The notes beneath the pieces were generated by a model. The model searched no databases and was not told the DNA's origin. It worked only from the letters and a program-made list of their open reading frames with translations. This document shows positions 43,277 through 47,850 of a stretch of 49,928 nucleotides of DNA, in pieces (the stretch's first letter is position 1; each line of letters starts with the position of its first letter). The translations under genes were made by a program, and so were the position numbers. This stretch comes from Flammeovirgaceae bacterium (GTDB lineage Bacteria > Bacteroidota > Bacteroidia > Cytophagales > Cyclobacteriaceae): positions 1 through 49,928 of the forward strand of contig JABMNK010000127.1 in the NCBI GenBank assembly GCA_013204595.1, written 5' to 3'.

Positions 43277-44029
43277 TTATTTGGTTTTTAAATAAGCAGC
43301 CAAAGCTTCAATTTGATCTGTATTGATATAATCCACTTGTAATTGTTGCAACTCCGCCCATACCGCTGGAACATCTGGACTTCCCCAAAGTCTTACAGGT
43401 TTTCTCATGACATGGGCCTTCTCAATGGCCGCTATGATTTTATCTCGCGCTGCATGAGACATCCGTTCTTTTTTCATCCTACTGGTGAACCTGCCATAAT
43501 CGTCGCTGATCAAGGCAATTTTCTCCAATTGCTCGGTCGTATACGATTTTTCCAACCTACCATCAAACCAGATAAAGGATGGATAATTGGTGTAGGCCGA
43601 TTCGTCGGGCCTATTTCCTGAAATTACAATGCGAATGTCTTCGTTTTCGATAATGCTCGGATATTTTTTCAAAATACTGATCAAGGCTTCAAGTGTTGCA
43701 ATGGGGGATGTTTTGATGTCGATTAAGAGTTGAAGTGAATGACTTGTTTTTTTTATCTTACTCAAAGGAATGAGGTACAATACCTCTAACGTTTCATTAA
43801 CATCCAGATTCTTTGCACTATGTGCCACCAAGAGGTCCCCATTGGCCAAATGGACATCTACCTCCATAGAGCCAAATCCATTTTGGTACGCCGCATAAAA
43901 AGGATGCTGCTGCAGATAGTCATTATGCGAATGGGCATTGGCAACTGAATAGGGCATTTGTTGTGCTTGGACAAAAAATTGGATGGCACAAAAGATGATG
44001 CAAAATGAAATTTTTATAATTGGGGTCAT
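43277..44029 (-). CDS. GDPD/PI-PLC-like phosphodiesterase, secreted
   Basis: The 250-residue protein has a signal peptide (residues 1-22, ending VQAQQ). It fits the family annotated as phosphatidylinositol-specific phospholipase C / glycerophosphodiester phosphodiesterase in Bacteroidota. The entry motif is SVANAHSHNDYLQQHPFY. The catalytic metal-site segment is GFGSMEVDVHLANGDLLVAH, followed by LQLLIDIKTSP and later KPVRLWGSPDVPAVWAEL. It probably cleaves external phosphodiesters of lipids or lipid head groups. It lies on the same strand about 200 bases downstream of the lipid operon, but a functional link is not shown. Confidence 0.85.
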   Translation of the reverse strand: MTPIIKISFCIIFCAIQFFVQAQQMPYSVANAHSHNDYLQQHPFYAAYQNGFGSMEVDVHLANGDLLVAHSAKNLDVNETLEVLYLIPLSKIKKTSHSLQLLIDIKTSPIATLEALISILKKYPSIIENEDIRIVISGNRPDESAYTNYPSFIWFDGRLEKSYTTEQLEKIALISDDYGRFTSRMKKERMSHAARDKIIAAIEKAHVMRKPVRLWGSPDVPAVWAELQQLQVDYINTDQIEALAAYLKTK

Positions 44030-44226: not shown

Positions 44227-45075
44227 TCACTTCTCAAAAGGGTCCCATTTGAACGGGGTATTTCTTGATGTAGCGCGAAATTTTGAATGCTTTATAAATT
44301 CAAGAATATCTTCTCCAATTTCATCAAACGAATAATACATTTCATCATGATTTAATCTGGTATATATCAGTTCATCATAAGATTGTGACATGTCCAAGTT
44401 GGACCAATCAATTGAACCATAACTCATCACTGTTTTTCTAAACATTCGAAGTAATGGGGTTGCCTTACTTTCAATGATTATTCCAATGTGCATTTCATCG
44501 TTGAAAATTGGTGGGTAATTGATCTTACTGAAATCTTCTATAATATCGCCAGACACCATTCTCCCTATTCTTGGGATTCTCTCCGAAATGACTCTCGGAG
44601 CAAGCTCTTGCAACGGGCTTCTGTCATAAATGATCGTTGAAATATTTTGAGCTCCTTGATTATTAATAAAAGTATTGATCGTCCAAGAGCCTAAGATATA
44701 TGAAAAGACATGTACCTTTTTGTATTCATTTAATTTTTGATCTTCAAAAAACTGAGTGAATTTTTTTACGGTAGCTTGGAACGATTCCTTATCAATGTAA
44801 TCTGGAATAAAAAGATCATATCCGACATTTTCAAAATATAGTTTTTGATTATTTCTTCCCTTCTTCGAATCACCAAGACCGGGTAAAATGATGAGTGCTT
44901 CTTTTTCAGCCAAAGGAATTTCTTTATTGTGTATCACAATCACTTCTTTATTATCCTTGGACTGGATCTCTTTTGCCACCAAAATAGCGTCAAGAGATCC
45001 TAGAACAATCGCGGCAATAGAAATACCAATGAGTTTGAATTGTCTTGATTTTATTTGTCTAACAGAGCTACGCAT
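44227..45075 (-). CDS. Alpha/beta-hydrolase-like protein of the lipid operon
   Basis: The 282-residue protein has an N-terminal membrane anchor (LIGISIAAIVLGSLDAIL). LIILPGLGDSKKGRNNQKLY is the oxyanion-region strand typical of alpha/beta-hydrolases. The nucleophile elbow is atypical: instead of GxSxG the sequence reads VHVFSYILGSW. Candidate acid and histidine lie in IIYDRSPLQEL and LNHDEMYYSF. It starts 3 bases after the SMR-like gene and is the last of five tightly packed genes. In E. coli the ynbABC cluster also combines a CDP-alcohol phosphatidyltransferase, a CdsA-like protein and a hydrolase (from memory), so a lipid-related role is inferred. Confidence 0.7.
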   Translation of the reverse strand: MRSSVRQIKSRQFKLIGISIAAIVLGSLDAILVAKEIQSKDNKEVIVIHNKEIPLAEKEALIILPGLGDSKKGRNNQKLYFENVGYDLFIPDYIDKESFQATVKKFTQFFEDQKLNEYKKVHVFSYILGSWTINTFINNQGAQNISTIIYDRSPLQELAPRVISERIPRIGRMVSGDIIEDFSKINYPPIFNDEMHIGIIIESKATPLLRMFRKTVMSYGSIDWSNLDMSQSYDELIYTRLNHDEMYYSFDEIGEDILEFIKHSKFRATSRNTPFKWDPFEK

Positions 45076-45078
45076 AAA

Positions 45079-45421
45079 CTATTTTCCCATTAGGTACATT
45101 CCACCCATTATCAGCACCATCCCTGCTATATTAATTGGTTTAATGGGGGTACCATAAGCCAGCATTGCAATGAGGGCCGTCCATATAAAAGTTGAGGCAT
45201 AAATTGGATAAAGCACCGTCAAGGCACCGCCTTTTTTAAAAGCCGCAACAAAAAGAACCATGACCGCTAGGTAACAAAACACACCCCCTAATAACTTTGG
45301 ATTCGTTAAATAACTTGCAATTGAACCACTGCTTTCTGCACCTTCTTTGTATAAATATTGGCCAATTGCACCGAATATGGCAGCGATAAAAAAAAACAAT
45401 GGATATGATCGGCGTGTTCAC
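45079..45421 (-). CDS. SMR/EamA-like small transporter with homopolymer-shifted start
   Basis: The visible frame is 106 residues from a TTG at 45399, with four hydrophobic segments, as in small multidrug resistance or EamA half-transporters. LTVLYPIYASTFIWTALIAM near the middle is the best match to that group. The expected N-terminus (MNTPIISIV from a GTG at 45421, 6 bases after the plsC stop) lies in another frame. The two frames meet at a T9 tract (A9 at 45388-45396 on the plus strand). Eight T would give one frame of about 113 residues. So the gene is either frameshifted, phase variable or misread. It may export or flip a lipid of the operon. Confidence 0.7.
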
Positions 45422-45427
45422 CCTTGC

Positions 45428-46084
45428 TTAAGTAAGTTCAAATTGATTTCTATCTCGTTCATCTTTTTGCTTTAATTTCAGAATAGCCTCTTTTACCTCT
45501 TCCAATGTCAATTCAATGTTTTCATTACTCGAAAACAGCGGTGCTCCAAACCTGACCTTACAAATAAGCGGGATGATCAATAGACTATCCTTTGGCAAAA
45601 CTCTTCCAAATCCATCTAAATACACTGGAATAAATGGAACTGTGGGGTTTTTCTTCAACAATATAGCGACTCCTTTTTTGAAATTACTGATTGCGCCAGG
45701 GGATCCGCGGCTCCCCTCAGGGAATATTATAATTGATTTACCCTCCTTTAATTTACCATCTAGTATCTCAATAGATGACGGCTCCCCTTCTTTCCTATTT
45801 CGATTTATGAGCACGGCATTAAAAAACAATTTCATCAGCCAGCCCGATACGGATGTTTTTCCGAAATAATCTCTTGCCGCTACCGCACAGGTATGCTGTC
45901 TCTTTTTGGCTGGCAAGCCAGCCATAATTGAAACTGTGTCAAAATGGCTATTGTGATTTGCTACAATAATAAATTGATCTAAGCCCTTGAAAACTTCTGT
46001 GTTTTTGAAGCTCACACCGACGATGTAGGTAAGCCAAGGCTTGACCAGAAATGCATAAAAAAATCGAACGAATATGTTTCTCAT
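45428..46084 (-). CDS. plsC: 1-acyl-sn-glycerol-3-phosphate acyltransferase family protein
   Basis: This 218-residue acyltransferase transfers an acyl chain to a lysophospholipid or related acceptor at the inner membrane. The catalytic HxxxxD motif is HNSHFD at 44-49 (within VANHNSHFDTVSI). The acceptor-binding motif FPEGSRGSPGAISNFKKG follows in the middle. A VPFIPVYLDG segment matches block IV. It begins 1 base after the CdsA stop. Its position in an operon with a CDP-alcohol phosphatidyltransferase suggests remodelling of the lipid made there, rather than the housekeeping phosphatidate step. The symbol reflects the family, not a proven function. Confidence 0.9.
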   Translation of the reverse strand: MRNIFVRFFYAFLVKPWLTYIVGVSFKNTEVFKGLDQFIIVANHNSHFDTVSIMAGLPAKKRQHTCAVAARDYFGKTSVSGWLMKLFFNAVLINRNRKEGEPSSIEILDGKLKEGKSIIIFPEGSRGSPGAISNFKKGVAILLKKNPTVPFIPVYLDGFGRVLPKDSLLIIPLICKVRFGAPLFSSNENIELTLEEVKEAILKLKQKDERDRNQFELT

Positions 46085-46085
46085 T

Positions 46086-47030
46086 TTAATTACTGATGAA
46101 GTAGCTTGATAAATGATAAAACATTGGCGTGGTGATCACAATAGAATCTAATCGATCCATTGCACCCCCGTGTCCAGGGATTAAATCGTCTGTATCCTTT
46201 ATTTTCAAATCTCTTTTTACTGCAGATATGATAGAATCACCTAAGAATCCCATAATTCCCACGGCTAATCCGACAATAAATGATTCATGTAATTCAAGAG
46301 GGGTTAAGAAATTCAGCAAGCCACCTAAAGCCCCTGTTGTTAAAACTCCTCCGACAAAGCCTTCCCATGTTTTATTGGGACTGACGTTTGGCAAAATTTT
46401 TCTCTTGCCAAGTAACTTGCCCCAAGTAAATTGAAAGACGTCATTCAGTGCGGTTAATATGATCAAAAAGATAATTAATGCTCCTCCACCTCCAGAAAAA
46501 CCAGGTACCGCTACATGAAAAAGCAAAGCCATGTGACTGATCATATAAACCGTTAACATCAACATAGCAGGAATCGTAGACATTGACCTTCCTATTAAAG
46601 TAGTATTACCCGAGATAACTAGCATGACAGGTAACCCAATAAACATAATTAAGGGAATGAAATACAGAAATTGATGGTAATAATTGTGATAGGCCAAATA
46701 GTATTGAACTGGAATCGCAAAGTATGCAGCAAATAATGCGCTCCTGTCTGCCTGCCTAAACCTACCGATAGAAAGCATTTCACGCAAGGCTACAAAAGAA
46801 ACATAGGAAAGCATGATTGTTCCAACGATTGCAGGGGCGGTAATTAATATACCAATTCCTAACGCCATCTTCCACCAAGAATTGGTCCGAATAATTAATT
46901 CATCAATCAATTCACTTCTATTCGTTTTAGAAATAATCCAAAATGCACAGGTACAAACTATCAGAATTGAGAAAATAATTAAAAGCGAAAAAAGCACTTC
47001 AACTGATATATAGTAACCTTGAAATGTCAT
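46086..47030 (-). CDS. Phosphatidate cytidylyltransferase (CdsA family)
   Basis: This enzyme makes CDP-diacylglycerol from phosphatidate and CTP. From the ATG at 47030 the protein is 314 residues with about eight hydrophobic helices. I prefer this start because it overlaps the stop of the upstream gene as TAATG, although the frame is open to 47099. The signature is present: SAVKRDLKIKDTDDLIPGHG followed by GAMDRLDS, with the KD and D residues that bind magnesium. SPNKTWEGFVGG is also family-typical. It sits between the CDP-alcohol phosphatidyltransferase and plsC, and probably provides the CDP-activated lipid to the former. Confidence 0.92.
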   Translation of the reverse strand: MTFQGYYISVEVLFSLLIIFSILIVCTCAFWIISKTNRSELIDELIIRTNSWWKMALGIGILITAPAIVGTIMLSYVSFVALREMLSIGRFRQADRSALFAAYFAIPVQYYLAYHNYYHQFLYFIPLIMFIGLPVMLVISGNTTLIGRSMSTIPAMLMLTVYMISHMALLFHVAVPGFSGGGGALIIFLIILTALNDVFQFTWGKLLGKRKILPNVSPNKTWEGFVGGVLTTGALGGLLNFLTPLELHESFIVGLAVGIMGFLGDSIISAVKRDLKIKDTDDLIPGHGGAMDRLDSIVITTPMFYHLSSYFISN

Positions 47031-47623
47031 TAAAATGCTTTTCTTAATCTTGTAAATGTACTTAGAAGAACCATTGCGCAAGCTGCTCCGAAAATCCAAT
47101 TTGCGTATAATTCGATATTACTCCAGAAGAAATCTATCAGGCAAAAAAGACCTAAAAAAAGTGCTCTGTCGCTTTTCCCCATTGGCCCATCGTATCTTCT
47201 TCCTTTACCTAACGCCTTACTCAGTACACCAGAAAACTCATTAAGAATGGCCAATACACCAAATAATACAATAATCAACGGATTAATTCCTGGAATAATG
47301 ATAAATGGAAAAATGATGCATATATCTGAGATCACATCTCCCAATTCATTCAAAACTTCTCCCAATTGACTGTGCATATTGTATTGTCTTGCCATCATGC
47401 CATCCAATGCATTTAGCACCATCCTCAAAAAGAAACCAATTGGAATAATTAAAAGTGCTGAGTGATGGATTTGATATTGAGAAAAACAAAATCCCATGGC
47501 AACTGAGAGGATGATCGCAACTAACGTAAGTTGATTTGCTGTCACCCCCATTTTGTAAAGCCAATGCAAGACCGGCTGGAGGAATTTTTGAAATGCTGGT
47601 TTTAAATGGTAAACTGAAATCAT
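47030..47623 (-). CDS. CDP-alcohol phosphatidyltransferase family protein with altered motif
   Basis: The 197-residue membrane protein is the first gene of the lipid operon. The family signature D-x2-DG-x2-AR-x8-G-x3-D-x3-D is recognisable at residues 71-96 as NALDGMMARQ then LGEVLNELGD. Residue 71 is Asn instead of the first Asp, and residue 92 is Asn instead of the third Asp, which is thought to be catalytic. D74, G75, A78, R79, G88 and D96 are kept. It has about six hydrophobic helices. E. coli YnbA, as I recall it, is of similar size and is also next to a CdsA-like gene. So this may be a distinct subfamily making an unknown phospholipid, or a non-catalytic protein. Confidence 0.85.
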   Translation of the reverse strand: MISVYHLKPAFQKFLQPVLHWLYKMGVTANQLTLVAIILSVAMGFCFSQYQIHHSALLIIPIGFFLRMVLNALDGMMARQYNMHSQLGEVLNELGDVISDICIIFPFIIIPGINPLIIVLFGVLAILNEFSGVLSKALGKGRRYDGPMGKSDRALFLGLFCLIDFFWSNIELYANWIFGAACAMVLLSTFTRLRKAF

Positions 47624-47850
47624 CTTCCATTTTTTATATATTAAATGTAGGCAGAAAATCCCCCTTTAACAAATTGGCTCCCCTTATTTCCATGTGGAAT
47701 AGTGAGTGTTTTTAAAATCCAAATTATACAACTCAAATTAAAAAAAGTAACCAGGTACCCAGATAGGTTTTACTATTATTTAATTGAAAATGAACACTTT
47801 GTGAAATTTGATCGCGCCTATAAGCAGTGGTATGCAGGTTTCTATCTTTT
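47624..47850. other. Divergent promoter region of the lipid operon
   Basis: About 225 bases between the CDP-alcohol phosphatidyltransferase gene (minus) and the Cys-rich small membrane protein gene (plus). No gene is visible. Both promoters should lie here. It is AT-rich around 47720-47780. Confidence 0.35.

Follow-up and report, generated by a model that had tools for sequence, protein, structure and literature searches.

The subject of this work is a run of five genes, here called A to E, on the minus strand of a stretch of 49,928 nucleotides (the window; contig JABMNK010000127.1) from a Flammeovirgaceae bacterium, whose draft assembly amounts to 3.01 Mb, is split into 137 contigs and is 99.85% complete. 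On balance, these genes probably form a transferred YnbA-YnbB-PlsC phospholipid cassette whose first gene, A, encodes a cytidine diphosphate (CDP)-alcohol phosphotransferase with a metal motif that has changed throughout its family. As judged from sequence, the gene cluster is a version of a widespread, uncharacterised membrane-lipid operon, represented in E. coli by ynbAB; it is likely to serve dedicated phospholipid synthesis, with A, its key enzyme, probably forming a special phospholipid by unusual means.

The interest of the case lies in the fact that a large family departs, in a fixed way, from two supposedly absolute motif residues, with two more positions changing in step. Either there is a natural variation on the two-metal mechanism of these enzymes, or the widespread operon centres on a non-enzyme. 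Moreover, the function of ynbABCD becomes a testable question, since E. coli K-12 carries the operon.

An altered metal motif in gene A

Gene A (47030..47623, minus strand, 197 amino acids) matches PF01066 (CDP-OH_P_transf) at 42.7 bits against a cut-off of 22, a family matched at E<=0.001 by 32/32 of the scanned relatives of A, and shares 40% identity with E. coli YnbA in an alignment that spans 98-99% of the query. Furthermore, its AlphaFold2 (AF2) model is predicted to have the class I CDP-alcohol phosphotransferase fold and matches phosphatidylinositol-phosphate (PIP) synthases in Foldseek. Domain match, identity, model and the invariant columns described below place gene A almost certainly in the YnbA family of class I CDP-alcohol phosphotransferases.

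The eight residues of the class I motif, D1xxD2GxxAR...GxxxD3xxxD4, have been described in one report as absolutely conserved (PMC4634129), and in M. tuberculosis PgsA1 two metal ions are reported to be held by four aspartates, with Asp93 as the proposed base (PMC6506517). Gene A keeps six of the eight. Its motif reads R67-x3-N71-x2-D74-G-x2-A-R-x8-G88-x3-N92-E93-x2-D96, with Asn instead of Asp at D1 (Asn71, codon 47411..47413, minus strand, aligned to Asp68 of PgsA1) and at D3 (Asn92, codon 47348..47350, minus strand, aligned to Asp89), as an earlier note on this DNA had correctly observed; D2 and D4 are still Asp (Asp74 and Asp96, corresponding in a profile alignment to Asp71 and Asp93 of PgsA1). 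Arg67 (codon 47423..47425, minus strand) lies one helical turn ahead of Asn71, and Glu93 (codon 47345..47347, minus strand) adjoins Asn92. Both arginines with which PIP synthases hold the acceptor phosphate are retained as R153 and R192, and the position of PgsA1 Arg94, directly after the D4 base, is occupied by Val97 in gene A and by Val, Ile or Ala in 89/89 aligned members of the family. RsPIPS (5d91/5d92) and PgsA1 (6h53/6h59) are 15-19% identical to gene A, which is unlike both in its Asn at D1 and D3, in the Arg four residues before D1 and in having no counterpart of Arg94.

Extent of the change among relatives

The Asn pair is, by the alignment, a family trait and neither chance nor damage, because both residues are invariant in all 89 members aligned, namely the window, 80 scanned loci and 8 plasmid records; isolated damage to gene A was ruled out by the pair being common to the whole family. 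The 80 loci are the best, with flanks, of at least 582 relatives confirmed in a scan of species genomes by pattern and tblastn. N71, D74, G75, A78, G88, N92, D96, D100, R142, R153 and R192 are each found in 89/89, a count that for N71 is partly built in through one of the two scan patterns (the source of the 80 members), which contains N71, and that for N92, present in neither pattern, is not.

The pair also recurs where no pattern was used. The first alignment, made of rows found by tblastn, gave N/N in 14/14, and a profile survey of 299 Pseudomonadota genomes yielded 25 first-tier members (E 2.5e-46 or better), among which 22/25 are N/N, one is A/N and two were not read. The second tier of that survey comprised 14 places (E 7.6e-20 to 3.9e-11), 5 of them fetched and 9 not; N/N was found in 5/5 of those fetched, and these proteins group as a second subfamily. 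Like the window, this subfamily (L179-L183) has N/N, R67, Glu or Asp at 93, and both B and PlsC alongside; it differs in its distance from the family profile (E 7.6e-20 to 4.6e-17), in an Arg at the Arg94 position and in having neither R142 nor E129. In the Pseudomonadota entries L217-L221 of the second subfamily, CdsA and PlsC are neighbours and the Arg94 position is again occupied by Arg, some of the open reading frames (ORFs) picked there looking fused or overlapping.

The family is broad in distribution. Record titles of the best 80 loci name Bacteroidota, Pseudomonadota, Bacillota, Planctomycetota, Verrucomicrobia, Latescibacterota and Elusimicrobiota, many being metagenome-assembled genomes whose labels may be wrong. 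In a tblastn search of 395 genomes of the window's own phylum, 7 (its own included) matched at E 3.1e-53 or better, the next match standing at 4.8e-9, and a pattern-free tblastn search with gene A matched 30 plasmid records, E. coli YnbA included; query coverage was 80% or more in 29. The same R-N-D-N-E-D motif is present in YnbA of E. coli K-12, and of 5,426 E. coli genomes 4,721 matched the ynb operon, coverage reaching 80% or more of it in 4,239. Nine stretches of viral contigs fitted a pattern, none being confirmed as a relative of gene A, and in phages relatives were absent at 1e-5. The contrary findings foreseen in the earlier note were not made, the relatives found not being proven PgsA or PssA enzymes and the Asn pair not being unique to the window. 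Among the papers listed by the literature searches, which left subscription papers and preprints outside their scope, there was no report of N/N as a constant feature of YnbA proteins, of the linkage with R67 and E93, of neighbourhood statistics, of a YnbA activity or of a ynbABCD product.

Two other positions change together with the Asn pair. They were examined in a set of 77 proteins, made up of 33 N/N, 43 D/D and one A/N protein (L178, outside both counts), the D/D rows coming from the host genome, from relatives of the host and from 14 genomes in which the family occurs, and labels such as PgsA-like or PssA-like being assigned from tree clades and motif, not from annotation. Among 57 paralogue loci, 9 without a match to the motif pattern and 5 that were themselves family members (L147-L151) were left out, as were, among 30 survey loci, L161 (pattern matched in the wrong frame) and L177 (internal stop). 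Arg67, four residues before N71, occurs in 33/33 N/N against 0/43 D/D proteins, and Glu93, beside N92, in 31/33 against 0/43, while D74, G75, G88 and D96 are common to all proteins of both kinds. In a tree built without columns 71 and 92, N/N requires 2 changes against 25.4 in shuffles (a quick method, with several long branches); the N/N rows group together in a tree that does not separate one from two origins. The relative L178 (G731:C1:2662835-2663320) has Ala at D1 and Asn at D3, yet retains R67 and E93, possibly a further step away from metal binding.

From these columns we infer a re-set metal site, with two carboxylates fewer, one guanidinium more and perhaps one carboxylate shifted to position 93. 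Tentatively, the two Asp-to-Asn changes may act with R67 to replace one of the two metal ions or to weaken its binding, giving an Arg-assisted or single-metal site. The changed chemistry that the earlier note had offered for A is plausible, co-conserved R67 and E93 lending it support.

The cassette and its movement

Next to gene A stands gene B (46086..47030, minus strand), a predicted YnbB-type CdsA paralogue, that is, a CDP-diacylglycerol (CDP-DAG) synthase. It matches PF01148 at 192 bits, one of two such matches in the host genome, and is taken from the ATG at 47030, the ORF opening at TTG 47099. YnbB aligns with residues 66-333 of the 337-residue gene B ORF, the host's other CdsA only with residues 227-325; YnbB and CdsA themselves are reported to be alike in the C-terminal half only (PMC6362211, PMC7018664). 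The number of CdsA-type genes was two in 14 and three in one of the 15 genomes searched. YnbB is said to produce CDP-DAG in vitro (PMC7018664), and the passages seen of another study state that it does not complement a cdsA deletion (PMC6362211); taken together, the two results fit, by analogy, a dedicated CDP-DAG supplier. The gene neighbourhood suggests that YnbB is perhaps the CDP-DAG supplier of the YnbA pathway and not just an MPIase enzyme.

The association of A and B is frequent among the best-scoring relatives. A B-like gene is found in 74/80 loci, downstream of A by 200 nt or less, or overlapping it, in 62/80 and within 1.4 kb on either side in 66/80; genes like B and C both occur in 58/80, adjoining in 52 of those 58. 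As a control, a CdsA-type gene was sought within about 1.5 kb on each side of CDP-alcohol phosphotransferases outside the family, with 25 of the 30 CdsA queries plus the B family and with 9 pattern-less loci retained, and was found in 0/52. The Pseudomonadota survey, which was unselected and took in some 1.5 kb on either flank, showed B in 7/25 first-tier loci, PlsC in 7/25 and a YnbC-type gene in 17/25; in loci like these, B often lies about 4 kb from A. The earlier note had asked whether N/N marks a clade always adjoining CdsA and PlsC; the answer is for the most part, though not wholly, yes, since the N/N rows stand together in the tree, yet with two changes, and B is nearby in only 7/25 unselected loci.

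Clustering of the ORFs in the 89 loci, which misses some genes through losses in ORF picking, gave YnbB-type genes in 74, PlsC in 54, YnbC-type in 39, YnbD-type in 37, SDR in 21, patatin in 17, E-type in 15 and D-type in 4. Three layouts recur: A-B-PlsC-YnbC-YnbD (for instance L079, L083 and L097), A-B-patatin-SDR-YnbD-YnbC (for instance the Chryseobacterium loci), and A-B-PlsC accompanied by E or by small membrane proteins. All five genes of the window's operon stand in identical order in L044 and L045 (labelled Balneola), L046 (labelled Saprospiraceae) and L222, with 52-79% identity per gene and no notable difference on sequence comparison. The 38 nearest relatives of the host gave no strong match to gene A, and two weak ones. 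Since the five-gene order is shared with these four loci and a strong match is missing from those nearest relatives, the cassette has apparently moved as a unit by horizontal transfer. The GC content of the operon (0.370 against 0.387, with 15% of equal windows equally low) neither shows nor excludes transfer.

The parallel with E. coli ynbABC drawn by the earlier note holds, the core ynbA-ynbB-plsC recurring. In ynbABCD (b1408-b1411) ynbA adjoins ynbB as in the window. In contrast, the K-12 operon is without plsC and has YnbC (hydrolase/methyltransferase) and YnbD (phosphatase), both absent from the window's operon, which has PlsC, the SMR-like D and a different hydrolase-fold protein, E. An E. 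coli plasmid typed as conjugative IncK2/Z (L037; NZ_CP027341.1, 47457-58044) carries ynbA-ynbB-plsC-ynbC, a set that includes the PlsC which the K-12 operon lacks.

As regards regulation and phenotype, ynbA is reported to be up in an E. coli acid-tolerance study, which cites activation by BglJ-RcsB (PMC12871917), and under an antimicrobial peptide (PMC12811501), a pattern that suits envelope adaptation. Moreover, ynbD is listed among candidate fitness genes in a screen of uropathogenic E. coli (PMC3855560) and ynbC among altered genes in a persistence study (PMC13313352).

A candidate pathway and its competitors

In the pathway proposed, B would convert phosphatidic acid to CDP-DAG apart from the housekeeping CdsA, and A would move the phosphatidyl group from CDP-DAG to a phosphorylated alcohol, giving a phosphatidyl-alcohol-phosphate, with the acceptor held by R153 and R192 and D96 acting as base. 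For the phosphorylated nature of the acceptor the chances appear even. C may acylate or reacylate a precursor or the product, D may assist movement of the product across the membrane, and E may bind or process it. In many relatives, a PAP2/DSP phosphatase would strip the acceptor phosphate and the YnbC methyltransferase-hydrolase would finish the head group. A bolder version, which we consider rather doubtful, would make the YnbA family and the second N/N subfamily a separate class I branch, in which R67 and the two Asn replace one metal so that the enzyme runs on one metal or none, and which would produce an undescribed class of bacterial phospholipid through a dedicated CdsA-PlsC pathway that several phyla and, minus the PlsC, the majority of E. 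coli genomes possess.

Several observations weigh against the proposal. The substitutions in A could equally mean lost activity, two metal ligands being gone, and in the PIP synthase where such an Asp-to-Asn exchange was tested, it concerned D4 and neither D1 nor D3. The accompanying residues are not wholly fixed: E93 is found in 88/89 aligned members, the exception being a Lys in an E. coli strain, one second-tier row has Asp at 93, and L178 has Ala at D1. Six of the 80 loci are without a B-like gene (one of them cut by a contig end), and the link with B is weaker in unselected Pseudomonadota than in the best-scoring 80. Finally, a phosphorylated acceptor would make a phosphatase necessary, and the window's operon is without one; no activity, product or lipid of any family member is reported in the literature searched.

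The first point leads to the strongest of the competing explanations, itself improbable, namely that A is catalytically dead and binds CDP-DAG or another lipid, either to assist or regulate B or to sense the membrane. Loss of two of the four metal-ligand aspartates in 89/89 members speaks for it, and the presence of B in 74/80 loci would allow a partner role. However, the D4 base, D2, both glycines, the Asn/Thr of the cytidine monophosphate site and the arginines for the acceptor phosphate are all invariant, while a protein reduced to binding would, as a general expectation, lose its base and acceptor site too.

Marginally less probable is a pathway supplying MPIase (GlcNAc-PP-DAG), to whose synthesis YnbB has been described as dedicated; A would then use an acceptor of the sugar-phosphate type. 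In the portions seen of the study concerned, overproduction of YnbB increases MPIase in E. coli and YnbB cannot substitute for CdsA in bulk lipids; the same portions state, on the other side, that deletion of ynbB alone brings no significant change in MPIase and propose a route with CdsA or YnbB but with no YnbA step (PMC6362211). Furthermore, it is not evident what PlsC, the methyltransferase and the phosphatase would do in such a pathway.

Gene A might also use CDP-DAG with an unphosphorylated or lipid acceptor, PlsC and the hydrolases remodelling acyl chains and the phosphatase found elsewhere serving a different step. The missing phosphatase of the window operon would then be explained, and many partners (PlsC, patatin, hydrolases) are acyl-chain enzymes; the invariance of the two arginines that hold the phosphate in PIP synthases makes this option quite unlikely.

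Slightly more remote still is the identification of A as a phosphatidylinositol-phosphate or archaetidylinositol-phosphate (AIP) synthase. These enzymes provide its best NCBIfam and structural matches, and R153 and R192 are retained. Nevertheless, the top model, the AIP synthase NF040950, gives 72.8 bits, far below its cut-off of 180, and the PIP synthase model 45.7 bits against 170; Arg94, needed by PIP synthase, is Val, Ile or Ala in 89/89. PF01658 (inositol-1-phosphate synthase) was unmatched in 12 of the 15 genomes searched, the window's own among them, where uptake or another route could supply the substrate. As for a drifted housekeeping PgsA or PssA, membership of the same Pfam family is outweighed by the position of the gene A family apart in the tree, the two other, canonical D/D CDP-alcohol phosphotransferases of the host and the lack of a strong match in its 38 nearest relatives, which leave the idea barely credible. 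Gene A also scores below cut-off with the PgsA and PssA models (29.9 bits against 109.1 with TIGR00560 and 27.1 against 107 with TIGR00473), and both the housekeeping and the PIP synthase identities were rejected.

The remaining genes and the edges of the operon

According to ORF calling, the five genes are packed head to tail from 47623 to 44227, and Pfam matches agree with the packed lipid genes described in the earlier note. One base is common to A and B (TAATG), a single base separates B from C, and three lie between D and E; the spacing of C and D is 6 bases, as the note had it, if D starts at GTG 45421, which is out of frame with the rest of D, and 28 bases with TTG 45399. Gene C (45428..46084, minus strand) matches PF01553 at 72.5 bits and is a predicted PlsC-type acyltransferase.

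Gene D (45079..45399, minus strand, 106 amino acids from the TTG) resembles half of an EamA/SMR-like protein, its matches to PF00892 (EamA) and ArnE being weak and under cut-off; a sequence search of the PDB gave nothing credible. Its relatives carry about 8 additional N-terminal residues, and at 45399-45430 the window has this N-terminus in one frame and the remainder of D in another, a homopolymer T run intervening; an assembly error, genuine slippage or a later start, at the TTG, may lie behind this. Gene D is 71-77% identical in L044-L046 and is likely to be linked to the pathway, because two gammaproteobacterial loci whose genes are ordered differently (L081 and L115) have a relative of it directly ahead of B. 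The earlier suggestion that the operon moves a lipid is an overreach, since the transport role of D depends on the sub-threshold EamA/ArnE match.

Gene E (44227..45075, minus strand, 282 amino acids) has an N-terminal helix and a predicted alpha/beta-hydrolase fold, the evidence being AF2, Foldseek and an alignment of 15 members; the members scanned had no Pfam or NCBIfam match. The AF2 model (pLDDT 88.1) matches hydrolase-fold proteins in Foldseek with probability 1.00 and a best E of 2.3e-7, the TM scores by query being 0.38-0.51 among the 50 matches listed. The fold is thus found in the model and the nucleophile Ser/GxSxG elbow is not: the elbow residue after strand 120-125 is Tyr126 in 15/15 aligned members, so that, on its sequence, E is not a standard serine lipase. 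Glu202, His243 and R152-S153-P154 are also invariant in this alignment, and the family shows a motif Y-D/N-R-S-P-x-Q-E. A remodelling hydrolase activity of E, and with it the remodelling of a lipid that the earlier note had read into the operon, is doubtful, the usual nucleophile serine being missing.

Downstream of the operon, a gene at 43277-44029 has a GDPD_2 match at its C-terminus only (30.3 bits, cut-off 27) and is probably not part of it, because 197 bases separate it from E. Scans for sigma-70 promoters (17 against 14.3) and terminators (2 against 2.9) did no better than shuffles. By eye, TTTG, 20 bases and TACATTTA can be discerned at 47642-47673, ending 18 bases before the ATG of gene A, an arrangement resembling the Bacteroidota promoter consensus.

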